Shown here piece by piece: positions 1-9,601 of a stretch of DNA of 9,601 nt. The DNA comes from Anaerolineaceae bacterium (lineage in GTDB: Bacteria; Chloroflexota; Anaerolineae; Anaerolineales; Anaerolineaceae). The translations under genes and the position numbers were made by a program. The stretch is from the NCBI GenBank assembly GCA_028699715.1, contig JAQVUC010000024.1, forward strand, positions 1-9,601, in the 5' to 3' direction. The number at the start of each line of letters is the position of its first letter. Position 1 is the stretch's first letter. Below the pieces are notes generated by a model. That model was not told where the DNA came from. It saw only the letters and a list, made by a program, of their open reading frames with translations, and ran no database searches.

Positions 1-625
1 TAGCGCTGATCAGGTTGACCACGGCCGCTTTATCATCCAGATGACGAGATTTGACAAAGCCGTTCACCAGCTCAACCCGCGCGTCAAAGGAAACAAAGTC
101 ACCAACCTCGATGCCAAGCTTCCGGACCTCATCCGCTGAGGAAACACGTGCATCCAGGCGCACTTCCATGGTGCCGGCTTCTCTTTTTTCGTCCCGGGCG
201 TTGTCGTAGACATGCACAGAGGCTTTGTGGGGCAAGAAACTACCGCGAACCACACCCTTATCCCGCGTGTGGACCAGGCAATTTTCGCCTTCAAAACTTC
301 CCCAGGCAAAACCGCCGACGTTGGTCAACTCCAGCCTGCCGCTGGGCTTGATCTCGCGTACCATGCCGCCCAGAGTGTCCACATGAGCTGTAAGTCCCCG
401 CGCGACAGGCGCCTCCGCGCCATCCTCACCCGTTATAGTAACCAGCAGGGAGCCTTTGCGGGTCCATTCCAGTTTCACTTCCGGAAAAGCTGCCAGTTCC
501 TTTTCAACCAGTTTGATGGCCAGGTCAGAAAAACCGGTCGGGCTGGGGGTATTCAAGAGCCGGACCAGTAGGTCTTCCTGCCAGGCATAATCGATTTCGG
601 GTAAGGATTTTTGGGTTTTCTTCAT
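1..625 (-). CDS. M42 family metallopeptidase (glutamyl/deblocking aminopeptidase type), N-terminal part, cut by window edge
   Basis: The 208 residues visible here are the N-terminal half or more of a cytoplasmic di-metal aminopeptidase that trims peptides from the N-terminus. What is seen: the opening LLNTPSPTGFSD, where the family usually has a SPSG-type motif; the first metal-ligand motif TAHVDTLGGMV (His81, Asp83); and SRHLDDKAAV near the edge, with Asp197 in the position of the metal-bridging Asp of the family's LDD(K/R) motif. M42 enzymes usually have about 340-370 residues, so the remaining metal ligands and the catalytic Glu lie left of the window. The start ATG (625-623) overlaps the stop of the upstream thioesterase as ATGA, so the two are probably co-transcribed and translationally coupled. 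The family assignment is secure; the substrate is unknown. The frame stays open to base 1. Confidence 0.88.
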   Translation of the reverse strand, partial: MKKTQKSLPEIDYAWQEDLLVRLLNTPSPTGFSDLAIKLVEKELAAFPEVKLEWTRKGSLLVTITGEDGAEAPVARGLTAHVDTLGGMVREIKPSGRLELTNVGGFAWGSFEGENCLVHTRDKGVVRGSFLPHKASVHVYDNARDEKREAGTMEVRLDARVSSADEVRKLGIEVGDFVSFDARVELVNGFVKSRHLDDKAAVVNLISA

Positions 626-1077
626 GCTAACAACTCCTCATTGTGTTCAAATTGAGCTAATTTCACCCGCCACTCTTCTGGAACTGGGCGGGAATGGTCT
701 TCACTGTGATCGTAAGCCACCATCACCACCTCGCCGCGGGCGAAGGCGGTTGAACCATCTTCGCTTTCCACTTGAAACTGGAAACGAAGACTTTTTCTGC
801 CCAGGTCTCCGGTGCGGATGCCCACCCTGACTTTGTCGCCAAACTGGATGGACACCAGATAGTCGATTTTTGCTGAGGCTACCACCATTCCAAACCCACC
901 TGTCATTACGCCGTCCCAAATACCGCTGGCTTTGTAATAGCCTGTACGGGCGGTCTCAACATATTCGAGTATGGCAATATTGTTGACATGTCGCAGCGTG
1001 TCGATGTCAGAATAGCGGACAAGGATAGGTTGGTAATAGTTGAATTCCTGGGGATATGAGGGCTTAATCATGGTCAT
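622..1077 (-). CDS. Acyl-CoA thioesterase, 4HBT hot-dog fold (YbgC/FadM-like)
   Basis: A 151-residue single hot-dog domain, the normal length for the 4-hydroxybenzoyl-CoA thioesterase family, which hydrolyses acyl-CoA thioesters in the cytoplasm. The signature is VRYSDIDTLRHVNN (residues 20-33): an acidic residue (Asp24/Asp26) a few positions before the HVNN segment that begins the long central helix (IAILEYVETAR). The beta-strand blocks MVVASAKIDYL and GRKSLRFQFQVE follow in the expected order. The first ATG (1077-1075) is preferred over a second ATG two codons later, because AGGAGTT (complement of 1082-1088) sits about 4-6 nt upstream of it. The gene is the first of a minus-strand unit with the M42 peptidase, overlapping it by 4 nt. 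Substrate chain length cannot be told. A function linked to the peptidase is not obvious. Confidence 0.9.
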   Translation of the reverse strand: MTMIKPSYPQEFNYYQPILVRYSDIDTLRHVNNIAILEYVETARTGYYKASGIWDGVMTGGFGMVVASAKIDYLVSIQFGDKVRVGIRTGDLGRKSLRFQFQVESEDGSTAFARGEVVMVAYDHSEDHSRPVPEEWRVKLAQFEHNEELLA

Positions 1078-1097
1078 GGTTAACTCCTATACCTGGA

Positions 1098-1103
1098 ATT
1101 ATA
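1098..1103 (-). promoter_or_regulatory. Candidate -10 box for the thioesterase-M42 unit
   Basis: On the minus strand this is TATAAT, a perfect -10 consensus. It lies about 20 nt upstream of the thioesterase start, giving a predicted 5' leader of only about 13 nt that holds the AGGAGTT ribosome binding site. No convincing -35 element is seen at 16-18 nt spacing, so the call rests on the -10 box and its position. Confidence 0.4.
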
Positions 1104-1174
1104 GCCATACTTGAATCGAAATGCGACCTGTAACCTTAATTATGGTGGGAATATTTAGGGACTCAAGCTGATAC

Positions 1175-1203
1175 TTGGTTTTCTTGAAAGAAAACTATAT
1201 ACT
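1175..1203 (+). promoter_or_regulatory. Candidate sigma-70 type promoter for the MFS permease
   Basis: TTGGTT (1175-1180) and TATACT (1198-1203) are separated by exactly 17 nt. The -10 element matches the consensus at five of six positions; the -35 matches mainly in TTG. It points at the permease and predicts a 5' leader of about 100 nt. The spacer contains a short palindrome listed separately. Confidence 0.45.
1179..1194. promoter_or_regulatory. Palindrome inside the promoter spacer, possible operator
   Basis: TTTTCTTGAAAGAAAA has two complementary 7-nt arms (TTTTCTT and AAGAAAA) around a 2-nt centre. It lies between the -35 and -10 elements proposed for the MFS permease, where a dimeric repressor would block transcription. 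Efflux permeases are often controlled by such local repressors, but no regulator gene is visible in the window. AT-rich arms of this size can arise by chance. Confidence 0.3.
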
Positions 1204-1309
1204 ATAGGCAAGTATTCCACATAATCTCATCAAACAGATGTCAATAATTACACCTGCTTAGCAAACAGGATCTTTTTTGTTCTTTTAAGTACTGCTTTGG
1301 GTATTACAA

Positions 1310-2638
1310 ATGACAGCAGAAACCAGGAAAACAGGCTTTCGCACGTTTCTCATTGTTTGGTTCGGTCAATTGGTTTCACTGACCGGTTCAAACCTGACAA
1401 CCTTTGCTCTTGGAGTATGGGTATTCCTGCAAACCAGGTCTACCACTGCCTTTGCTCTGATCCATGCTTTTAGTTCCATTCCCGCTGTGCTTTTAGGTCC
1501 TTTTGCGGGGGTTTTCGTCGATCGCTGGGATAGGCGCAAAGCTATGCTGCTAAGTGATTCGGGCGCCGCTATCTGCACGCTGACAGTCTTGTTTTTACTG
1601 TCATCAGACAGGCTTCAGATTTGGCATTTGTACGTACTATTGACCTTAAGCGCCTGTTTTGAAACCATTCAATGGCCAGCCTATTCTGCTGCTACCGCGC
1701 TTCTGGTGCCCGGGAGGCTATTAGCCAAAGCCAATGGCATGGTGCAACTCGCAGGAGGTGTCGCGCGCATATTCGCTCCGTTCATGGCTGGTATTCTGAT
1801 AGGAATCATTGAACTTAAAGGGGTTATTAGCATTGACCTGACCACCTTCGTCATCGCCTTGATCACGCTAGCGATCGTTCGTGTACCTAAACCTGAAAAA
1901 ACGATTGAAGGGCAAGCCGGCAAAGGATCTGTATTTAAGGAAGCTTTTTTTGGTTGGACCTACATTCGTCAGCGAAAAGGCTTATTCGCCTTGCTGATGC
2001 TTTTTGGCGTAGTAAACATTTATACGAGCATTGCTTATGTTATTTACACGCCTCTTATTCTTACTCTCTCAACACCAAAAATCCTCGGGCTTTTGAGTTC
2101 AGTTGCTGGGTTGGGATATCTACTTGGCAGTCTTTTGATCAGTATCTGGGGTGGGCCAACACGAAAAATCTATGGCATCTATATTTCTGAGATTGTAATT
2201 GCAAGCTCTCTATTCTTACTGGGGAGCACAATTAATTTGATTCTATTGGGATTGGGAGCCTTTTTTGCCTTTGCCTGTTTGCCAATTGTGGACGCTTGTA
2301 GCCAGACAATCTGGCAGCAGAAAACCGCTCCTGATATCCAGGGCAGAGTCTTTTCATTCCGCCGGGTAATTGCCTGGAGCAGCGTTCCTTTAGCCTATGT
2401 CGCCGCTGGTCCTCTGGCTGACAAAGTGTTTTCACCTCTTTTAGTGGAAGGCGGAGCGCTGGCGGAGTCAATTGGACAGATCATTGGGGTTGGGCCAGGC
2501 AGGGGCTTAGGCTTGTTTTATATCATCCTGGGAATACTTATGATACTGGCAACTGCCCTGGCTTATTTTTATATTCCACTTAGAAACGTTGAAATAATTT
2601 TGCCGGATATGCTCCCTGATCCAACCCTCGAAAATTAA
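1310..2638 (+). CDS. MFS transporter, drug (macrolide-type) efflux family
   Basis: A 442-residue integral membrane protein with about 12 hydrophobic segments, the usual size for the major facilitator superfamily. The short N-terminal RKTGFRTFLIVWFGQLVSLTGS and the helix FALGVWVFLQTRSTTAFALI resemble the DHA3/MefA-type exporters, which extrude drugs by proton antiport. The conserved motif A loop between helices 2 and 3 is seen as GPFAGVFVDRWDRRKAML (residues 63-80, with Gly67, Asp71, Arg72 and Arg75). A charged central loop (KPEKTIEGQAGKG, around 195-206) divides the two six-helix halves. The C-terminus after the last helix is short. The ribosome binding site is weak: only a G-rich TTTGGG about 8 nt upstream of the ATG. 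The next in-frame Met is inside motif A, so 1310 is the only sensible start. It is a single-gene unit ended by a terminator. The substrate cannot be inferred; a resistance role is possible but unproven. Confidence 0.9.
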   Translation: MTAETRKTGFRTFLIVWFGQLVSLTGSNLTTFALGVWVFLQTRSTTAFALIHAFSSIPAVLLGPFAGVFVDRWDRRKAMLLSDSGAAICTLTVLFLLSSDRLQIWHLYVLLTLSACFETIQWPAYSAATALLVPGRLLAKANGMVQLAGGVARIFAPFMAGILIGIIELKGVISIDLTTFVIALITLAIVRVPKPEKTIEGQAGKGSVFKEAFFGWTYIRQRKGLFALLMLFGVVNIYTSIAYVIYTPLILTLSTPKILGLLSSVAGLGYLLGSLLISIWGGPTRKIYGIYISEIVIASSLFLLGSTINLILLGLGAFFAFACLPIVDACSQTIWQQKTAPDIQGRVFSFRRVIAWSSVPLAYVAAGPLADKVFSPLLVEGGALAESIGQIIGVGPGRGLGLFYIILGILMILATALAYFYIPLRNVEIILPDMLPDPTLEN

Positions 2639-2674
2639 CTCTATACTGACGAACACCCTCTAAAACAGCAAAAA

Positions 2675-2722
2675 AACTCCTGGTAAAGCAAGGATTGAAA
2701 GATTTGCCAGGAGTTCCTTTTT
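2675..2722 (+). terminator. Rho-independent terminator after the MFS permease
   Basis: The arm AACTCCTGG (2675-2683) pairs with CCAGGAGTT (2707-2715). The stem extends inward through one G-U pair and three A-T pairs (2684-2687 with 2703-2706), giving 13 pairs. A T-run follows at 2718-2722. It lies 36 nt after the permease stop. Confidence 0.85.
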
Positions 2723-2775
2723 GAACCTAAACTCAAGATTTTACACAAAGAGTCTGTTTTTCCCGATGCCTGATG

Positions 2776-2781
2776 TATACT
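2776..2781 (+). promoter_or_regulatory. Candidate -10 box for the oligoendopeptidase gene
   Basis: TATACT lies about 33 nt upstream of the start chosen for the peptidase (2815). Transcription would begin near 2787, after the upstream ATG at 2773, which supports the shorter start. No clear -35 is seen at proper spacing. Confidence 0.35.
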
Positions 2782-2814
2782 CAAGCTAATACAAAAAATA
2801 GAAAAAGGATGACT

Positions 2815-4584
2815 ATGACTGAAGAAACGTATACCCAATCCCCGTGGAGTCTTGAAGAATTGTTTGCCGGTTTTGACGATCCAAAGATCGAAGAGACCTA
2901 CCAGGCCATCAGTAAAAATGTTGAACGCTTTGAGGGCTATCGGGACGAACTAAAACCGGACATTTCTGCAGAACGCTTTTTAGAAATGATCAAGGGCATG
3001 GAAGCCAGCCATGAACTGGCCTACCGTTTGTACGGTTTTGCCTCCCTTAGTTTTGCCGCCAACACGCAAGATCAGAAAGCCCAAATCGCTATCGCCAAAG
3101 TGCAGCAATTTGTGGCTGAGATCGAAAACCGCACCCTTTTCTTTAACCTCTGGTGGAAAGCTCTGGATGACCAGAATGTAGCCCGTTTGCTTGACGCAAG
3201 TGGTGACTATCGCTATTGGTTGGAGCAAATCCGCAACTTCAAGCCCTACACGCTCAGTGAAGCTGAAGAAAAGATCATCAATATCAAGAACGTCACTGGC
3301 TCAAGCGCCATGGATATGCTCTATGATTCCATCACTAACCGTTATGTTTTCAAGCTGGAAGTTGATGGAGAGCAAAAAGAACTGACCCGTGGTGAGCTGA
3401 TGTCTTACGTCCGCAGCTCAGACCCTGACCTGCGCGCCCGCGCCTACCAGGAGCTTTACCGTGTTTACGGTGAAGACGCTCCCATCCTGGGTCAGATCTA
3501 TCAGAATATCGTGCGCGACTGGAAAAACGAGAACGTGTCCCTGCGCGGCTTTGCCAGCCCGATTGCAGTGCGCAATACCATCAACGATTTGCCGGATGAG
3601 GTCATCGAAACCTTACTTGAGGTTGCCCGTAAGAATGTCGATATCTTCCAGCGCTATTTCCGCCTGAAGGCAAGCAAGATCGGCATGGAAAAATTGCGCC
3701 GATATGACATCTACGCTCCTATTTCTGAGTCTGACAAACGCTATAGCTTTCAACAAGCTACTGCCATGACCTTTGAAGCCTTTGAACGTTTTGATCCGAA
3801 ATTTGCCCAATTGGCAAAGCGCGTTTTTAATGAAGCCCACGTGGACAGCCAGGTTCGGAAAGGCAAAATGGGCGGCGCTTTTTGTTCGACCCTGGGACCG
3901 GCTTTGACCCCCTGGGTGATGCTCAACTACCAGGGTAAAGCTGACGACGTTTCCACCATGGCGCACGAACTCGGGCACGCCATCCATTCCATGATGGCAG
4001 AAGAACACAGCATCTTCACCCAGCATGCCTGCCTGCCCCTGGCTGAGACCGCCTCCACCTTTGGTGAAATGACCCTGACCGATCTGCTGCTGGAGCGCGA
4101 GACCGATGACGGTGTCAAACAGGACATCCTCTTTGGTCAGCTTGATGACGCTTTTGCGACCATTATCCGTCAAATTTACTTTGCCCTTTTCGAACGCGAA
4201 GCGCACGAGATGATTGCCAAGAACGCTTCGGTTGATGAACTGAGTGAAGCCTATCTGGCTAATCTAAAGGAAGAGTTTGGCGACGCGGTGGATGTTTCTG
4301 ATGAATTCAAGTATGAATGGGTTTCCATCCCCCACATTTACGGCACCCCCTTCTATGTGTATGCCTATGCTTTTGGGCAATTGCTGGTCTTCGCGCTGTA
4401 TAAGCGCTACCAGGAAGAAGGTGAAAGCTTTAAGCCCAAGTACATGCGCATCCTCTCAGCCGGCGGTTCGATAGCACCTATCCCCTTGTTGGCTGAGGTT
4501 GGCCTGGATGTCACCAAGGCCGAATTCTGGCAGGGCGGCTTTGACGTGATCGAGGGTATGGTCAGCAAGTTGGAAAATCTGTAA
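2815..4584 (+). CDS. pepF: Oligoendopeptidase F, M3 family zinc metallopeptidase
   Basis: A 589-residue cytoplasmic zinc endopeptidase that cleaves short peptides, typical in length for the pepF/M3 (M3B) group. The active site is MAHELGHAIHSMM: zinc ligands His384 and His388 with catalytic Glu385. The third ligand is Glu411 in LAETASTFGEM, 27 residues after the first His, as usual in M3. Other seen family marks are KMGGAFCSTLGP (substrate loop before the active site) and the C-terminal IPHIYGTPFYVYAYAFGQL. The N-terminal half is the helical oligopeptidase F domain. Start choice: three in-frame ATGs lie close together (2773, 2809, 2815). AAAAAGG (2802-2808) abuts the ATG at 2809 but is 6 nt from that at 2815, so 2815 (protein beginning MTEETYTQ) is preferred; 2773 would lie upstream of the likely transcription start. 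The gene is monocistronic, with terminators on both sides. Likely role: peptide turnover. Confidence 0.93.
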   Translation: MTEETYTQSPWSLEELFAGFDDPKIEETYQAISKNVERFEGYRDELKPDISAERFLEMIKGMEASHELAYRLYGFASLSFAANTQDQKAQIAIAKVQQFVAEIENRTLFFNLWWKALDDQNVARLLDASGDYRYWLEQIRNFKPYTLSEAEEKIINIKNVTGSSAMDMLYDSITNRYVFKLEVDGEQKELTRGELMSYVRSSDPDLRARAYQELYRVYGEDAPILGQIYQNIVRDWKNENVSLRGFASPIAVRNTINDLPDEVIETLLEVARKNVDIFQRYFRLKASKIGMEKLRRYDIYAPISESDKRYSFQQATAMTFEAFERFDPKFAQLAKRVFNEAHVDSQVRKGKMGGAFCSTLGPALTPWVMLNYQGKADDVSTMAHELGHAIHSMMAEEHSIFTQHACLPLAETASTFGEMTLTDLLLERETDDGVKQDILFGQLDDAFATIIRQIYFALFEREAHEMIAKNASVDELSEAYLANLKEEFGDAVDVSDEFKYEWVSIPHIYGTPFYVYAYAFGQLLVFALYKRYQEEGESFKPKYMRILSAGGSIAPIPLLAEVGLDVTKAEFWQGGFDVIEGMVSKLENL

Positions 4585-4594
4585 AAATTTCTAG

Positions 4595-4634
4595 AAAAAA
4601 GCGGGACGTTTTGACTTCGTCCCGCTTTAATTTT
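4595..4634. terminator. Bidirectional intrinsic terminator between the peptidase and lipoprotein genes
   Basis: AAAGCGGGACG (4598-4608) and CGTCCCGCTTT (4618-4628) form a perfect 11-bp stem with a 9-nt loop. On the plus strand AATTTT follows. On the minus strand the stem ends in a run of six T (complement of 4595-4600). It can therefore stop both convergent genes: the peptidase 11 nt before it and the lipoprotein about 150 nt away. Confidence 0.85.
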
Positions 4635-4783
4635 GCTTAGATTTCTTAAGCGTTACGGCTTTAAGCACCCGATTGGTACTACCAAGACATTATCGTTGCA
4701 TGCGTATGCATATTGCCATGCAGTCAAAACCATAAGAGACTTTTGGGGTAAATCGTGAGAGATATTTGAGGTCTTGTTTTTCT

Positions 4784-6340
4784 CTACTCAAACACACCCG
4801 CTTCGACGTAATAGCGCTTGCCCTCACGGCTGGCGAAGAAGGCAACCATGTTCTCGTAATGCGTTGGGTTGTAGAGGCTAAAACCGCAGCAATTGTGGTA
4901 TGAGACCTCGTCAAAACCGAGCAGCACTTCCTCCCCGGCATAGTTCAAACCAATTTCACCCCCTTTATTGAAGAAGAAGAATGGCTCACCGGCTAAGATC
5001 TGGAAGCCGAAGGTTTCATCGTAACCGAATAATTGGCTGAGCGACTCTCCGCTCCTGTAGATCTCACCCAACGTTATTCCTTTTGTGACGTTGCCCTCAG
5101 TTTCATACTCAACGTGCGCCATCTCCATGTACCAGTGCTCCCCATGCACCCAAACTCCAAAAACCGCATCCATGGCAGCCGAATAAGTCAGATCACCGAC
5201 GGGAACACTGAGAACAACCTCATCATCTAGCAATACCTCAACAGTAGCTATGGAGTTTTGGATGACTGTTTTCGCACTGAGCACTTTGCCTTCGAAGAGA
5301 GGGGAGTCAATTTGATAGGGAATAATATTCTTGCGTTCTGACTCATGACGTTTCAACACCCACCCAGGCAATGAACCGGTTGGTCGAGATTGAATATGAT
5401 CGTTGTCCGGCCAGGAGCCGTCCTCCAGCCAGTAGGCTTCCACTGTAAGACCCGCGCCAGAAAGGTCCATGACGGTTGTGTCAAAGGCGGAAAAGAGACC
5501 CATTTCAACGTAATACTCAACTTCGTTCCTCTGGGCAAAGAAGGTCACCATGGTCAGATAAGCTTTGGGGTTGAAGGCTGCCCCACTGCAGCAGGCGTAA
5601 TGAGAAACACTTTCAAAACCGAGACTGTGAGATTCCCCGGCGTAATTAATACCGATCTGGCCGTCTTTAGCGAAAAAGTAAAAAGGCTTATCGTCCAGAG
5701 GCTGGAAGCCAAAAGTTTCGTCGTAGCCGTATTGCTCATTAAGCGAAACCCCGTTCATAAAGATTTCACCCCCAGCTTTGGTGGTAACAACATTTCCGGT
5801 AACTTCGTTTTCAACATGTGCTACCTCAACGTACCAATCCTTTCCGATCACCCACATGCCGCGTAGGGGATCTACCGGGCTAACCGCACCGCAGTTGACA
5901 GACAGCACTTCTTCTTCGTCCAGCTTGAAGTTAATCATCATTTCACCACCGCTTTCAATTTGCTCGGCAGTCAATTGACGTCCGTTGAGTGGTGGGGGCG
6001 AGAAGGGTTGTGAAAAAATGTCACGCAATGGTCGGCGCGTTTTGAGAATCTCCCTGGAGGGTCCGGCAGTGGTGCTAAAAAGTCCATCATCCTCGGGAGC
6101 TTTTGTTATGCGCTCATAGATTTCCATGGTCAGATCGCCCAATTGGACAACCTCTGGTCCATTGACCGCCCCTGGGGTAGGGTAGCTGGTTGTTGCATCA
6201 GTGGCTGTTGGCAGCGTTACCGGCATAGGAGTTGGGGCAAGAGCTTCCGGGGGTTTTGGGCTTGGAGCCTGAATTGGGACACAGGCGGAAAGCAAGAGAG
6301 ATATCAATATGACAGAAGTGTATGGAAATTTTATTTTCAT
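4784..6340 (-). CDS. Predicted lipoprotein with two tandem copies of an unrecognised domain
   Basis: A 518-residue secreted lipoprotein. Residues 1-20 are a lipoprotein signal peptide (MKIKF, a hydrophobic core, then lipobox LSAC with Cys20 as the lipid-modified residue). A Pro/Thr-rich linker (about 21-60) would span the cell wall. Two copies of a domain of about 165 residues follow (about 120-283 and 351-517). They share GYDETFGFQ exactly (205-213, 439-447), IG(I/L)NYAGE, an adjacent Cys pair (250-251, 484-485) followed by NP, then MV(T/A)FFA and YYVE(M/A)G(L/F)F-type endings. The domains are rich in aromatic and beta-prone residues, with charged turns, suggesting a beta fold. I do not recognise the family and assign no function. 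The ribosome binding site AAGGAAGGAACG precedes the ATG closely. The gene is divergent from the sigma factor operon, which might regulate it, and convergent with pepF. Confidence 0.85.
   Translation of the reverse strand: MKIKFPYTSVILISLLLSACVPIQAPSPKPPEALAPTPMPVTLPTATDATTSYPTPGAVNGPEVVQLGDLTMEIYERITKAPEDDGLFSTTAGPSREILKTRRPLRDIFSQPFSPPPLNGRQLTAEQIESGGEMMINFKLDEEEVLSVNCGAVSPVDPLRGMWVIGKDWYVEVAHVENEVTGNVVTTKAGGEIFMNGVSLNEQYGYDETFGFQPLDDKPFYFFAKDGQIGINYAGESHSLGFESVSHYACCSGAAFNPKAYLTMVTFFAQRNEVEYYVEMGLFSAFDTTVMDLSGAGLTVEAYWLEDGSWPDNDHIQSRPTGSLPGWVLKRHESERKNIIPYQIDSPLFEGKVLSAKTVIQNSIATVEVLLDDEVVLSVPVGDLTYSAAMDAVFGVWVHGEHWYMEMAHVEYETEGNVTKGITLGEIYRSGESLSQLFGYDETFGFQILAGEPFFFFNKGGEIGLNYAGEEVLLGFDEVSYHNCCGFSLYNPTHYENMVAFFASREGKRYYVEAGVFE
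4790..5290 (-). repeat. Lipoprotein internal domain copy 2
   Basis: Residues 351-517 of the lipoprotein, aligned with copy 1 from GKVLSAK and LLDDEVVLSV through GYDETFGFQ and the Cys484-Cys485 pair to the C-terminus YYVEAGVF. The gene stops one residue after the domain, so the protein has no C-terminal anchor or extension. Confidence 0.8.
5492..5983 (-). repeat. Lipoprotein internal domain copy 1
   Basis: Residues 120-283 of the lipoprotein. The copy opens with GRQLTAEQI and the strand FKLDEEEVLSV, and ends YYVEMGLF. It carries Cys250-Cys251. It has one extra Cys (150) in the first strand region, which copy 2 lacks. Protein identity to copy 2 is clear but partial, so the duplication is old. 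Confidence 0.8.
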
Positions 6341-6524
6341 CGTTCCTTCCTTTCAATACGGAGGCAGGTGGACACCGATAACTTCATTGTACCTTACATA
6401 AAAAAAACAAGACCTGTAGGGGAAACCGCGTGAGTGGATCGTGATGAAATATAGTACAAGTCGTGTTGATTATGATTAACCTGCTTGTTCTGTCATGGTT
6501 AAATTGTGGAGTGAGACAGGCTTT

Positions 6525-6553
6525 TTGCCGTTCATGGAACGAAAAGATAAAAT
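6525..6553 (+). promoter_or_regulatory. Candidate promoter of the sigma factor operon
   Basis: TTGCCG (6525-6530) and TAAAAT (6548-6553) stand 17 nt apart and match the vegetative consensus at four and five of six positions. They predict a leader of about 55 nt. GGAAC, the typical -35 core of ECF promoters, occurs at 6536-6540 in the same place, but no ECF -10 motif is seen at the usual 16-17 nt distance. A vegetative promoter therefore fits better; auto-regulation is possible but not shown. The rest of 6341-6614 has no other clear element. Confidence 0.5.
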
Positions 6554-6614
6554 TCTAAATAAAAGCGTCACATTTTGGTGGGTAATCCGTTATAAGGAGT
6601 GAGAACACATTGAT

Positions 6615-7145
6615 ATGAGTATTCAAACAAGAGAACGCGCGAAGCATTTTGACAGGCAAGCACTTGTGGACTTATACGAGGAGCATAATAACGCTCTCTA
6701 CCGATATGCATATCGTCTACTTGGACAGCAAGACATGGCTGAAGATTGCGTCTCTGAGGTGTTCACGCGATTTCTGCAAATTGTGCAGAACGGAAAAGGA
6801 CCGCAGGGCAACATCAGAGCCTACTTGTACCGCATGACACACAATTGCGTGGTGGATCACTACCGCCAGAAGCGGACCGATGTACCAATTGAAAACACGA
6901 TATTGAAAGATCCGCGGCCTGAATTGGAAGATGACCTGCACCAAAAGCAGAATCAAGAAAAATTGCAGGAAGTATTGTTGAAAATGCCTGAAGAACAAAG
7001 AACGGTGATCATGCTGAGATATTTTGAGGACTGGTCTCACGAGCAAGTAGCAAGTCATCTCGGCAAAACTGAAGAAGCCACCCGCGCCTTACAGTACCGC
7101 GCTCTACGCAGTCTGCAAAAGAAATGTGTAAACAATAGGAAGTGA
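6615..7145 (+). CDS. RNA polymerase sigma factor, ECF subfamily
   Basis: A 176-residue sigma factor with the two-domain ECF layout. Region 2 (about 16-85) shows ALYRYAYRLLGQQDMAEDCVSEVFTRF in parts, including the core-binding AED..SEVF motif, then the DNA-binding helix RAYLYRMTHNCVVDHYRQKR. A short linker follows. Region 4 (about 113-170) begins LLKMPEEQRTVIMLRYFEDWS, with the helix-turn-helix HEQVASHLGKTEEATRALQYRALRSLQ (two overlapping parts) reading the -35 element. It directs RNA polymerase to a special set of promoters. The membrane protein gene starts 3 nt downstream, so they form an operon, as sigma factors and their membrane regulators commonly do. Start: AAGGAG (6594-6599) is 15 nt from the ATG at 6615, unusually far. 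An in-frame ATT at 6609 would be at 9 nt. A TGA at 6600 rules out any longer start. Confidence 0.92.
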   Translation: MSIQTRERAKHFDRQALVDLYEEHNNALYRYAYRLLGQQDMAEDCVSEVFTRFLQIVQNGKGPQGNIRAYLYRMTHNCVVDHYRQKRTDVPIENTILKDPRPELEDDLHQKQNQEKLQEVLLKMPEEQRTVIMLRYFEDWSHEQVASHLGKTEEATRALQYRALRSLQKKCVNNRK

Positions 7146-7148
7146 GTT

Positions 7149-8336
7149 ATGAAGAAAGATAAGTACCTGAATCAAAAATTGGACCCTGAGCTTGAAGCTA
7201 TGCTAGCTGAGATGCGCGCTGTGCCAGCCCGCGATCCGCAAGAAGCTGCTCAAAGGAAGGCGCGCTATCTTTCCCAGCTTGATCAACTGGGGCAAAGCAG
7301 TGTCCAAATTACACAAAAGAACATATTTGAAAAAATGAAGGAGAATTTTAACATGGCAACACCAAAACTTAGAACCGTAATGACCACCGCAGCAATCATG
7401 CTGTTGGCAGTAATATTTTTATTTAGCAGCGCAGGTATCACTGCCGTTGCCGCTTCCAGAGCATTGCCTGGAGACAACTTGTATGGCGTAAAGACCGGCG
7501 TGGAACGCACCCGTCTGAACATAACTTCACAAGATAGTGAGCGCGTGAGCCTCAACCTGAGGTATGCGGGTTTGCGTCTGGATGAGATTGAACGTTTGAT
7601 TGAGAAAGGACGCTTTGACGACTTACCAGAAGCCATTGGTGTGTATGAAGGCTATGTCAAAAATGCTATTGACAACCTGGAAGTGGTCAGCATGAATGAC
7701 CCGCAAGCCGCTTTGCAGCTGAACACTCAGCTCACACAACTTTTGAGCCAGTTTGCCGCAGCCATGGCGAACTACTCCGCGGCCTTGCCGTCGTCTGCCA
7801 AAGCACAGCTTAGCAATGCTATTGAGTTTTCAAAGTCAGCTGGCGCCTATGACGATGAGATCGAATTCTCCGGCACAGTGGAAGACATCCAGGCTGGTTA
7901 TTGGACCATTGCAGGCTATACAGTTGTAATCACTGAAGCTACCGAGATCGAGGATAGCATTCGTATTGGCGATACAGTTGAAGTAGAAGCCTGGATGGAC
8001 ATGGAAGGCCACATCTACGCTGAGGAAATAGAATACTACGACGACATGGACGATGACATGGATGATGACATGGATGATGACCATGACGACATGGATGACG
8101 ACATGGATGATGACATGGACGATGACATGGACGACGATGATGACGTAGACGACGACATGGATGACGACATGGATGACGACATGGACGACGACTATGATGA
8201 TGACATGGATGACGATGATGACGATGACATGGATGACGACTATGACGACAATGACGATGATGATGATGACGACTATGACGACGATGACGATGATGATGAT
8301 GATGATGACGATGACGATGACGATGACGACGATTAA
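7149..8336 (+). CDS. Single-pass membrane protein, DUF5667 plus DUF5666-like region, with polyaspartate tail; putative sigma regulator
   Basis: A 395-residue protein in five parts. Residues 1-75 are hydrophilic and probably cytoplasmic (LDPELEAMLAEMR, later ending basic at KLR); this is where an anti-sigma function would sit. One transmembrane helix covers about 77-102. Residues 103-235 are helical and begin ASRALPGDNLYGVKTGVERTR (shown in part), the hallmark of DUF5667. Residues 236-297 resemble DUF5666 (FSGTVEDIQAGYWTIAGYTV, then a strand ending EAWMDMEGHIYAEEIE). The last 98 residues (298-395) contain 80 Asp, 12 Met, 3 Tyr and one each of His, Val and Asn, and end in 19 Asp. Basic residues before the helix favour a cytoplasmic N-terminus and an external tail. 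AGGAAG lies 6 nt before the ATG. Context makes a regulatory partner of the sigma factor likely. Cation binding by the tail is inferred from charge only. Confidence 0.82.
   Translation: MKKDKYLNQKLDPELEAMLAEMRAVPARDPQEAAQRKARYLSQLDQLGQSSVQITQKNIFEKMKENFNMATPKLRTVMTTAAIMLLAVIFLFSSAGITAVAASRALPGDNLYGVKTGVERTRLNITSQDSERVSLNLRYAGLRLDEIERLIEKGRFDDLPEAIGVYEGYVKNAIDNLEVVSMNDPQAALQLNTQLTQLLSQFAAAMANYSAALPSSAKAQLSNAIEFSKSAGAYDDEIEFSGTVEDIQAGYWTIAGYTVVITEATEIEDSIRIGDTVEVEAWMDMEGHIYAEEIEYYDDMDDDMDDDMDDDHDDMDDDMDDDMDDDMDDDDDVDDDMDDDMDDDMDDDYDDDMDDDDDDDMDDDYDDNDDDDDDDYDDDDDDDDDDDDDDDDDDD
8040..8333 (+). repeat. Coding repeat: aspartate codons with 12-nt Met-Asp-Asp-Asp period
   Basis: The tail of the membrane protein is written in GAC and GAT codons in mixed order, interrupted by ATG every fourth codon across much of its first two thirds. 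It then passes into uninterrupted Asp codons (last 19). All steps are in multiples of three, so unit gain or loss would keep the frame. The mixing of the two Asp codons shows it is not one freshly expanded trinucleotide and suggests the acidic protein sequence itself is maintained. Confidence 0.9.
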
Positions 8337-8349
8337 CCATAAGTAGAGC

Positions 8350-8390
8350 AAAGCTGGCTTGAGACGGATATCTGTTTCAAGCCAGCTTTT
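8350..8390 (+). terminator. Rho-independent terminator of the sigma factor operon
   Basis: AAAGCTGGCTTGA (8350-8362) pairs perfectly with TCAAGCCAGCTTT (8377-8389). It extends by three more pairs including one G-U, leaving an 8-nt loop, and is followed by TTTTCGTTT. It stands 13 nt after the stop codon. The following 8391-8546 holds only an AT-rich leader with no confident promoter. Confidence 0.88.
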
Positions 8391-8546
8391 CGTTTAACAA
8401 AGAGACCAAATCAATATTTTTTTACAACTTTGTCCACTGGTTCCGGCTGCTTGAAAAACGAAAAAGCTTATGTAGTGTTTATTTTTTGAAACGAAAGGCT
8501 AACCCAGCGATTACAATTGACTTGCTATTAAAAAAAAAGGATCACT

Positions 8547-9125
8547 ATGACTAAAATGACCTCTCCCTCAGACATGATGGATTCAATGACGGATAACCTG
8601 AAAACGCACACGGGTAAAACTTTGGAAGAATGGGTTGAGCTCGTGCTTGCCTCTGACCTGGACCCCCTGGACCAAAAATCTGTCCGGAATTGGCTGAAAA
8701 AGGAACACGGAGTGCTCCAAAACAGCCAGTGGACCATCGCGGACGCGGCCGCCCGGGCAGCGGGTTGGGTGCGCCCCAGCGTGGAAGGCTATATTGACTC
8801 GCAATATCAAGGCCAGAAAGCTGCTTTGCGGCCGATTTTTGACGCTCTGCGGGAAATTATTGAAGGCTTAGGCGAAGATATCTCGGTTGAAGGTCGCAAT
8901 GGATACACTCCCTTTGTTCGCAAGCGCCAGTTTGCTGCCGTAAGGGCAGCTACCAAAACCCGGATTGACCTGGGATTGCGATTTAAGGAAGAACCTCAGT
9001 CAGAGTTGCTCAGCAAGAAAAGTTTACCGGGTCAGTCAACCCACAAAATCGGCTTGAGCTCGCTTGAGGATATTACGGACGAGCTCAGGGATTTGATCCG
9101 TCTGGCATATGAACAAAATGGATGA
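8547..9125 (+). CDS. DUF4287 / DUF5655 domain protein
   Basis: A 192-residue soluble protein without signal or membrane segments. Residues about 13-75 match the DUF4287 pattern (MTDNLKTHTGKTLEEWVEL at its start; LKKEHGVLQNSQWTIA in the middle). Residues about 88-188 match DUF5655: GQKAALRPIFDALREIIEGLG, then VEGRNGYTPFVRKRQFAAVR and the strand TRIDLGLRF, ending with a helix DELRDLIRLAYEQ. These domains occur together in small bacterial proteins of unknown function. The DUF5655 fold has been regarded as related to proteins handling nucleic acids or peptides, but no activity can be assigned. Start 8547 is chosen over Met codons at 4, 10, 11 and 14 because AAAAGG (8535-8540) is 6 nt upstream. 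It is monocistronic, after a strong terminator. Base composition resembles the neighbouring genes. Confidence 0.85.
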   Translation: MTKMTSPSDMMDSMTDNLKTHTGKTLEEWVELVLASDLDPLDQKSVRNWLKKEHGVLQNSQWTIADAAARAAGWVRPSVEGYIDSQYQGQKAALRPIFDALREIIEGLGEDISVEGRNGYTPFVRKRQFAAVRAATKTRIDLGLRFKEEPQSELLSKKSLPGQSTHKIGLSSLEDITDELRDLIRLAYEQNG

Positions 9126-9132
9126 TTGTTTT

Positions 9133-9159
9133 GCGGCGGGAGTGAACCCCCGCCGTACG
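9133..9159. repeat. Repeat A, copy 1
   Basis: A 27-nt GC-rich hairpin: CGGCGGG pairs with CCCGCCG (7 bp), followed by TACG. It differs from copies 2 and 3 in the loop (TGAA in place of CAAG). It starts 7 nt after the DUF5655 stop and could act as a weak end-of-transcript hairpin, although no T-run follows. Confidence 0.8.
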
Positions 9160-9160
9160 A

Positions 9161-9210
9161 TTGTTCTTGCCGGTCTCCGGACCGAGCGAGGACTTTGACC
9201 GTCAGGTCTC
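9161..9210. repeat. Repeat C, copy 1
   Basis: A 50-nt element starting TTGTTCT and ending AGGTCTC, with the core CGAGCGAGGACTTTGACCG. It matches copy 2 at 46 of 50 positions by eye. The core has no long stem; GGTCTC occurs near the beginning and at the end. Confidence 0.8.
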
Positions 9211-9213
9211 AAA

Positions 9214-9257
9214 AAAAAGCCGGATTGAACCCCACAATCCGGCCTACGAAAGGACTA
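9214..9257. repeat. Repeat B, copy 1 (terminator-like on the minus strand)
   Basis: GCCGGATTG (9219-9227) pairs with CAATCCGGC (9235-9243), a perfect 9-bp stem with a 7-nt loop. It is followed on the plus strand by CTACGAAAGGACTAA. On the minus strand the stem is followed by a run of eight T (complement of 9211-9218), the form of an intrinsic terminator for transcripts coming from the right. Confidence 0.8.
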
Positions 9258-9261
9258 ACGT

Positions 9262-9299
9262 ACTGATGGGAACCTGTGCCCGCGAAGCAGGGTATCAGT
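9262..9299. repeat. Imperfect single-copy hairpin between repeat sets
   Basis: ACTGAT (9262-9267) pairs with ATCAGT (9294-9299), and CCTG (9273-9276) with CAGG (9288-9291) inside, enclosing GCCCGCGAAG. It appears once here. Its build (a structured element between two B/A units) suggests another member of the same repeat world. Confidence 0.45.
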
Positions 9300-9330
9300 C
9301 CATCCGCTGAGCTAGTTAGATAGAAGACTG

Positions 9331-9357
9331 GCGGCGGGAGCAAGCCCCCGCCGTACG
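9331..9357. repeat. Repeat A, copy 2
   Basis: Same 27-nt hairpin as copies 1 and 3, with loop region AGCAAGC between CGGCGGG and CCCCGCCG. Followed by GTACGGGCAAGTAAG; copy 3 is likewise followed by an AAGTAAG sequence. Confidence 0.85.
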
Positions 9358-9376
9358 GGCAAGTAAGAAGAAAGCC

Positions 9377-9426
9377 TTGTTCTCGCGGGTCTCCGGATCG
9401 AGCGAGGACTTTGACCGCCAGGTCTC
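9377..9426. repeat. Repeat C, copy 2
   Basis: The 50-nt partner of copy 1 with four substitutions. It is placed 3 nt before B2, just as C1 is placed directly before B1, so C and B travel as one composite unit. Confidence 0.8.
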
Positions 9427-9429
9427 CAC

Positions 9430-9474
9430 AAAAAGCCGGATTGAACCTCGCAATCCGGCCTACGAAAAGACTAA
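9430..9474. repeat. Repeat B, copy 2
   Basis: Perfect stem GCCGGATTG (9435-9443) with CAATCCGGC (9451-9459), loop AACCTCG, then CTACGAAAAGACTAA. A 33-nt segment beginning GTCTCCAC (9422-9454) is repeated exactly at 9476-9508. Confidence 0.85.
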
Positions 9475-9483
9475 AGTCTCCAC

Positions 9484-9543
9484 AAAAAGCCGGATTGAAC
9501 CTCGCAATACCCAAAGGGCACGATGTCCGGCCTACGAAAAGAC
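9484..9543. repeat. Repeat B, copy 3, with 18-nt insertion
   Basis: Identical to copy 2 through CGCAAT and again from CCGGCCTACG on, but with 18 extra nt at 9509-9526 (ACCCAAAGGGCACGATGT). The outer stem GCCGGA/TCCGGC (6 bp) survives; the inner three pairs are lost. The copy lies 54 nt after copy 2, a local tandem duplication. Confidence 0.8.
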
Positions 9544-9565
9544 AGCGTAATCAAGAAACAGGAAT

Positions 9566-9592
9566 TCGGCGGGAGCAAGCCCCCGCCGTACG
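9566..9592. repeat. Repeat A, copy 3
   Basis: 27-nt hairpin identical to copy 2 except for its first base. It closes the cluster near the right edge, and the array may continue beyond the window. Confidence 0.85.
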
Positions 9593-9601
9593 AAGTAAGT
9601 A

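Follow-up and report, generated by a model that had tools for sequence, protein, structure and literature searches.

A poly-aspartate tail as the probable, exchangeable outer tip of a putative anti-sigma factor in an Anaerolineaceae bacterium

Introduction

What would a bacterium gain from a membrane protein that ends in little else but aspartate, and why would such a protein be encoded directly behind a sigma factor? This question is raised by a stretch of 9,601 nucleotides from an Anaerolineaceae bacterium (assembly GCA_028699715.1, contig JAQVUC010000024.1, positions 1 to 9,601), hereafter called the window. Herein, a two-gene cassette encodes an extracytoplasmic function (ECF) sigma factor and a predicted single-pass membrane protein of 395 residues, the last 98 of which (residues 298-395; 8040..8333, plus strand) include 80 Asp.

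Our reading is that the membrane protein is likely the anti-sigma factor of the adjacent ECF sigma factor, and that its Asp tail, predicted to be disordered and outside the cell, would use its bulk charge, and not a folded site, to bind cations or cationic material at the surface. Taken as a whole, we consider this reading tentative, with a little under an even chance of being right. More generally, comparison with related loci suggests a putative anti-sigma factor, similar to RsbN, whose outer tip can be exchanged and is in this case polyanionic and probably cation-binding. A role with cations or polycations would be the likeliest use of the tail's charge.

The cassette and its aspartate tail

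The first gene of the cassette (6615..7145) encodes an ECF sigma factor of 176 amino acids with regions 2 and 4 (Pfam Sigma70_r2, 5.4e-15, and r4_2, 4.8e-13; NCBIfam sigma70-ECF, 102.7 bits against a cut-off of 42.9). Three nucleotides further on the same (plus) strand follows the gene of the putative anti-sigma factor (7149..8336), whose parts are given here in order. Residues 8-70 (7170..7358) form a predicted cytoplasmic helical domain, the putative sigma-binding part. They precede the only predicted transmembrane helix (residues 82-100; 7392..7448), where hydropathy peaks at 2.38 and stays at or below 0.87 elsewhere; the net charge ahead of the helix is +4, and the N-terminus is predicted to be cytoplasmic. 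Next come DUF5667 (PF18915, residues 105-179; 7461..7685; E 2.2e-14), which scores 54.1 bits against a curated cut-off of 27 and is helical in the structure model (block predicted local distance difference test, pLDDT, of 84-95 over residues 111-180), and DUF5666 (PF18914, residues 242-295; 7872..8033), which scores 47.7 bits against the same cut-off of 27 and is modeled as a barrel resembling the oligonucleotide/oligosaccharide-binding (OB) fold.

The tail itself has no predicted helix or strand (block pLDDT 44-56) and consists of 80 D, 12 M, 3 Y, 1 H, 1 V, and 1 N, its last 19 residues all being D. The Met residues stand at positions 300, 304, 308, 315, 319, 323, 327, 337, 341, 345, 353, and 361, and the codons behind this composition include 45 GAC, 35 GAT, and 12 ATG. 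A first-pass annotation of this DNA had given the tail's coordinates, Asp count, and Met positions correctly to the residue. It had also placed the tail outside the cell and outside both DUF domains, in agreement with its predicted position on the outer side of the one membrane helix and with the Pfam boundaries. Judged from the reading frame, the tail is no misread frame, because that frame also encodes the Pfam domains upstream, and the closest homologues have an Asp-rich end at the equivalent place and in the equivalent frame.

Conservation of charge among the closest homologues

A first protein search (n=10) and a profile search (n=61) supplied the homologues, and 67 rows were examined, namely 66 proteins and the window protein, of which 37 have DUF5666. 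Since the rows were gathered by their likeness to the window protein, the shares given for them apply to its kin and not to all DUF5666 proteins. The three closest homologues (P0001-P0003; 70-81% identity over the folded part) all end in Asp tails, which extend 47-83 residues past the last DUF5666, carry a net charge of -35 to -63, and differ in length and order. One of them (P0001) has three DUF5666 copies with a short acidic piece behind each. Among the 37 DUF5666 rows, at least 25 residues follow the last DUF5666 in 29, and every one of these 29 ends is net negative (-4 to -85); in the other eight (P0006, P0025, P0027, P0028, P0039, P0040, P0042, and P0043) only 0-19 residues follow, some of these proteins probably being cut. 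Tail lengths vary widely across the homologues. On comparative grounds, the acidic tip is thus real, and among close kin its character is conserved and its letters are not. A tail of this kind recurs at the same place beside the same type of sigma factor, also in other genera (G062, G122, and G692), which is what the first-pass annotation had proposed to look for.

The window protein shares its domain order with the DUF5667-DUF5666 proteins of Anaerolineales and their relatives, which mostly have acidic tails in the collected rows and often acidic linkers between DUF5666 copies as well. It differs from them in having a tail of nearly pure Asp, where in most others N, S, G, or H are interspersed with D.

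Because the tail combines Met with acidic residues and follows a barrel whose predicted fold resembles that of the OB-fold metal chaperones CusF and SilB, it could be taken for a sensor of copper, silver, or another soft metal. We consider this very improbable. From one homologue tail to the next, the residues between the Asp differ (M, Y, S, N, G, H, A, I, V, and others). Met is not conserved among them, any of Y, S, N, G, I, V, H, or A standing in its stead, and a special role for it, as suggested earlier from the Met period, is not supported. Furthermore, a shared fold proves no function, and, unlike CusF, the window protein holds no His or Met in residues 236-270, which presumably correspond to the part where CusF carries its ligands.

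Selection or slippage

The DNA of the tail is repetitive: in 8040-8333, Tandem Repeats Finder detects arrays with periods of 12 (score 175), 24 (202), and 33 (180) nucleotides. The tail could therefore be a neutral expansion, in which replication slippage of GAY/ATG units at the gene end is tolerated as the protein end is free. In addition to the arrays, the wide variation in homologue length and traces of repeats in the third bases of the codons speak for such an origin. Over 16 lags in the window tail, only lag 11 codons stands out (0.67 vs 0.50, p 0.002, uncorrected), and among other tails repeat memory was found at lag 8 in L065 and in the short tail of L066, at lag 7 in L003, and weakly at lag 13 in L002, with none in L040.

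Still, no memory remains in the third bases of the window tail's Asp codons at the repeat step of four codons (0.49 vs 0.50, 71 pairs), while the protein stays Asp, with 80 of the 86 non-Met positions (93%) being this residue. Neutral simulations stopped at an identity of 0.55 or less kept on average 17-48% Asp, depending on transition bias, and 83% in the top of 60 runs per setting; with a looser stop at 0.70 the mean rose to at most 66% and the top run to 88%. These simulations started from a uniform founding unit and had point mutations only; the case would be weaker if slippage or conversion reshuffled GAC and GAT, which they could do with no mutation at all. As the residue persists through a scrambling of its codons, the comparison favors selection on Asp or on charge. 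Close homologues lacking the tail had been named beforehand as a sign of neutral expansion; instead, the three closest all keep acidic ends, and the codon test likewise disfavors such an origin, which we regard as improbable.

Acidity across the wider family

Looking beyond the close kin, DUF5667 is present in 196 of 301 genomes of the order. It is not named by any paper in our literature search, and DUF5666 appears as gene-table entries in passages from two papers. For a broader comparison, a quick tree was built from 130 rows with tails of at least 25 residues, some of them cut by contig ends, and a tail was called acidic if its net charge per residue was at most -0.25. By this cut-off 34 of the 130 rows have acidic tails, namely 26 of the 39 with DUF5666 and 8 of the 91 without it (Fisher p 3e-11, with rows that are not independent). 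Acidity changes 10 times on the tree against 30.1 times after shuffling, none of 500 shuffles being as low, and the starred branches force at least 5 changes. Therefore, acidity is inherited in clusters, with several gains or losses.

The link with the sigma factor

A sigma gene lies directly upstream at 84 of 96 distinct DUF5667 loci. The putative sigma-binding part of the window protein follows this pattern: its profile matches 40 of the 96 loci, all 40 of which adjoin a sigma gene, and none of the 12 sigma-less loci. Likewise, the nine rows with at most 75 residues before DUF5667 are all without a sigma gene; the association of N-terminus length with the sigma gene has a Fisher p of 1.7e-10, for a 75/98 split that was picked after seeing the data and for rows that are not independent. 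Among the sigma-less proteins, L002, L130, L131, and L134 have an N-terminal membrane helix, no space for a cytoplasmic domain, no sigma neighbor found, and long Asp/Asn tails.

The family search found a match at 1e-30 or better in 13 of 147 genomes. We call sister operons the nine loci at 1e-54 or better (G000, G062, G122, G692, G305, G738 (C12), G188, G688, and G301), and a sigma gene adjoins in all nine. Four of them carry acidic tails (G000, G062, G692, and G122, the last one cut by a contig end), and in G301 an acidic linker is followed by a solenoid-like region. Pfam was run on six proteins of this set (L065, L124, L125, L126, L127, and L129): a beta-solenoid model came barely over its cut-off in L125 and L126, L125 had a weak bactofilin match as well, and L129 matched DUF5667 alone. 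As side observations, solenoid-like C-terminal regions stand in for the acidic tail, or come after it, behind the shared promoter in L125, L126, and L129, and L127 and L128 have five DUF5666 copies behind that promoter, with the acidic tail missing.

A shared predicted promoter

The promoter in question is a predicted ECF-type element, CGTCAYRTTT-N12-CGTTATA, at 6566..6594 (plus strand) ahead of the cassette, with a single exact match in the window and none in 200 shuffles. Visual inspection revealed it in eight sister operons before it was tested, so that L128 alone stands outside the discovery set. In relaxed form, with the spacing between its halves fixed at 12 nucleotides, it lies upstream of all nine sister operons and of 0 of 77 other sigma genes, the reversed control giving 0. 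When at most one mismatch is allowed, eight of the nine genomes, including G000, have exactly one site, which is at the operon (control: 3 sites in nine genomes); in the ninth, G301, the operon site has two mismatches. At two mismatches there are 9 non-self sites against 43 for the reversed control. Therefore no further targets are indicated, within the limits of a search that more degenerate targets may escape and of a G000 genome that is 73% complete.

These counts raise the idea of a regulon of one operon. Its only detectable promoter would be its own, the tailed protein would be brake, sensor, and sole product at once, the loop would set how much poly-aspartate is displayed, and tips would be swapped between species on an unchanged switch. 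We put this forward as a rather unlikely scenario, less probable than the general reading given above.

At the other end of the cassette, directly after the stop codon, lies a long hairpin with a U-rich 3' arm (8343..8398, plus strand; -32.1 kcal/mol, z -7.0). It is a possible terminator, and a simple terminator scan made no call at 8343-8398.

Comparison with known systems and proposed mechanism

Passages of the literature describe RsbN as a membrane-anchored anti-sigma factor and founder of class ASDIII (PMC8103513), and its gene as adjoining bldN and unusually divergent (PMC4255298). According to a further paper, the sole ASDIII crystal structure has a dual binding mode like other classes, two names being swapped in that text (PMC7406223). 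The parallel with RsbN, the anti-sigma factor of the Streptomyces sigma factor BldN in these passages, lies in the window membrane protein being encoded beside an ECF sigma factor. The difference is that DUF5666 and the Asp tail were seen in no RsbN-like protein of this analysis.

Structural matches point the same way. The window's profile found P0065, a Pfam DUF5667 protein, which in turn matches chain 6dxo_D (2.9e-5). In the table this chain is labeled BldN; we take it to be RsbN, since 6dxo_A is the ECF sigma factor. For the window sigma factor, 6dxo_A is the second-best solved structure, and the best NCBIfam model is TIGR02952 (BldN family, equivalog), with 108.2 bits, below its cut-off of 206.45. 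By analogy, the window protein may thus work like an RsbN-type anti-sigma factor; it remains a putative one, and we claim no membership of the class.

For the outer part, the acidic patch of PhoQ offers a comparison, in mechanism only and with no homology claimed. In the passages of PMC4473727, it is an outward acidic cluster on a membrane signaling protein, at which divalent cations repress and cationic peptides compete. Along these lines, the N-terminal 70 residues of the window protein would hold the sigma factor, and their grip on it would change with the charge state or attachment of the tail, much as divalent cations act at the PhoQ patch. Once released, the sigma factor would raise transcription of its own operon.

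Should this hold, the pairing of DUF5667 with sigma factors would gain an architecture, with a putative sigma-binding domain inside, an OB-like domain and an exchangeable tip outside, and a single conserved promoter. Being almost pure Asp, the tail would put to an extreme test the idea that bulk charge can do the work of a folded pocket in the outer part of a sigma-factor switch.

Weighing the reading against a plain spacer

Several observations weigh against the cation-binding, sigma-linked reading, and we gather them here. On the inner side, the N-terminal profile of the window compared with the RsbN chain gave no score above shuffled decoys, many of which scored as high, and L017, L072, and L077 have a long N-terminus yet no sigma gene was found beside them. 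On the outer side, the window protein, searched with Pfam at E up to 0.1, showed no EF-hand or TSP3 family, and neither did ten homologues searched at E up to 1. The tails of 13 of the 39 DUF5666 rows in the tree set are not acidic by our cut-off, some being rich in Pro/Thr, and the DUF5666 group includes L039, L045, L051, L054, and L055 with Pro/Thr- or His-rich tails. Among 28 other genomes of the same genus, 27 gave no match to the tailed protein and G022 gave a weak one to DUF5667 only. Finally, strongly acidic tails occur on six sigma-less DUF5667 proteins without a cytoplasmic domain (L002, L003, L005, L130, L131, and L134), so the acidic tail is not specific to sigma signaling. The tie between tail and sigma signaling, which the first-pass annotation had drawn, thus stands as far as the recurrence beside the same sigma type goes, and is weakened by these sigma-less tails and by the other tips behind the same promoter.

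The strongest rival is a plain spacer: the tail would be a generic flexible spacer or entropic bristle, for which any disordered soluble extension serves, acidity being one lineage's solution. It would account for the other DUF5667 proteins that end in Pro/Thr-, Asn/Gly-, or Lys-rich low-complexity tails, and for the swapping of other structures into the same position behind an unchanged promoter, namely a solenoid-like region in place of the acidic tail in G305 and G738, and five DUF5666 copies without an acidic tail in G188 and in G688 (the latter by local profile). On the other hand, the closest relatives stay acidic through changes of order and length, Asp persists where a single step would give, for instance, Asn or Gly, and acidity is clustered on the tree. 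All in all, we judge the spacer unlikely, if less so than the one-operon scenario, and prefer the reading of the tail as a cation-binding polyanion.

Genomic setting

The contig fits its genome: of 24 other genomes of the same genus, 19 have a nearly full-length copy of its M3 peptidase at 71-88% identity, and the remaining 5 have a partial one. The order of the neighboring genes is the same in G014 and G001 and is kept in part in G008, G016, and G009; G006, in the stretch that was read, showed the peptidase alone.

The place of the cassette itself is occupied differently elsewhere. In G014 and G001, a NifX/MrpORP-like gene sits between the DUF5655 gene and the lipoprotein gene, which is where the cassette lies in the window, and G016 and G009 showed neither the cassette nor this gene in the stretches that were read. 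The NifX/MrpORP-like gene adjoins the DUF5655 gene in G010 as well as in G014 and G001, its match lying below the model cut-off (for the G014 copy, which was tested). It was seen in L106 (10546-11280), L109 (3884-4663), and L122 (5747-6502), with a His-rich end in L106 and L109, and its start is presumably DUF134-like.

Two further observations concern the window alone. On the minus strand, 4784-6340 encodes a lipoprotein-like protein of 518 amino acids with two halves that are similar by eye; it gave no Pfam or NCBIfam match and is 63-78% identical in G014 and G001. The stretch 9134-9592 holds interspersed direct repeats of 101, 33, and 26 nucleotides, short pieces of which match G001 too.
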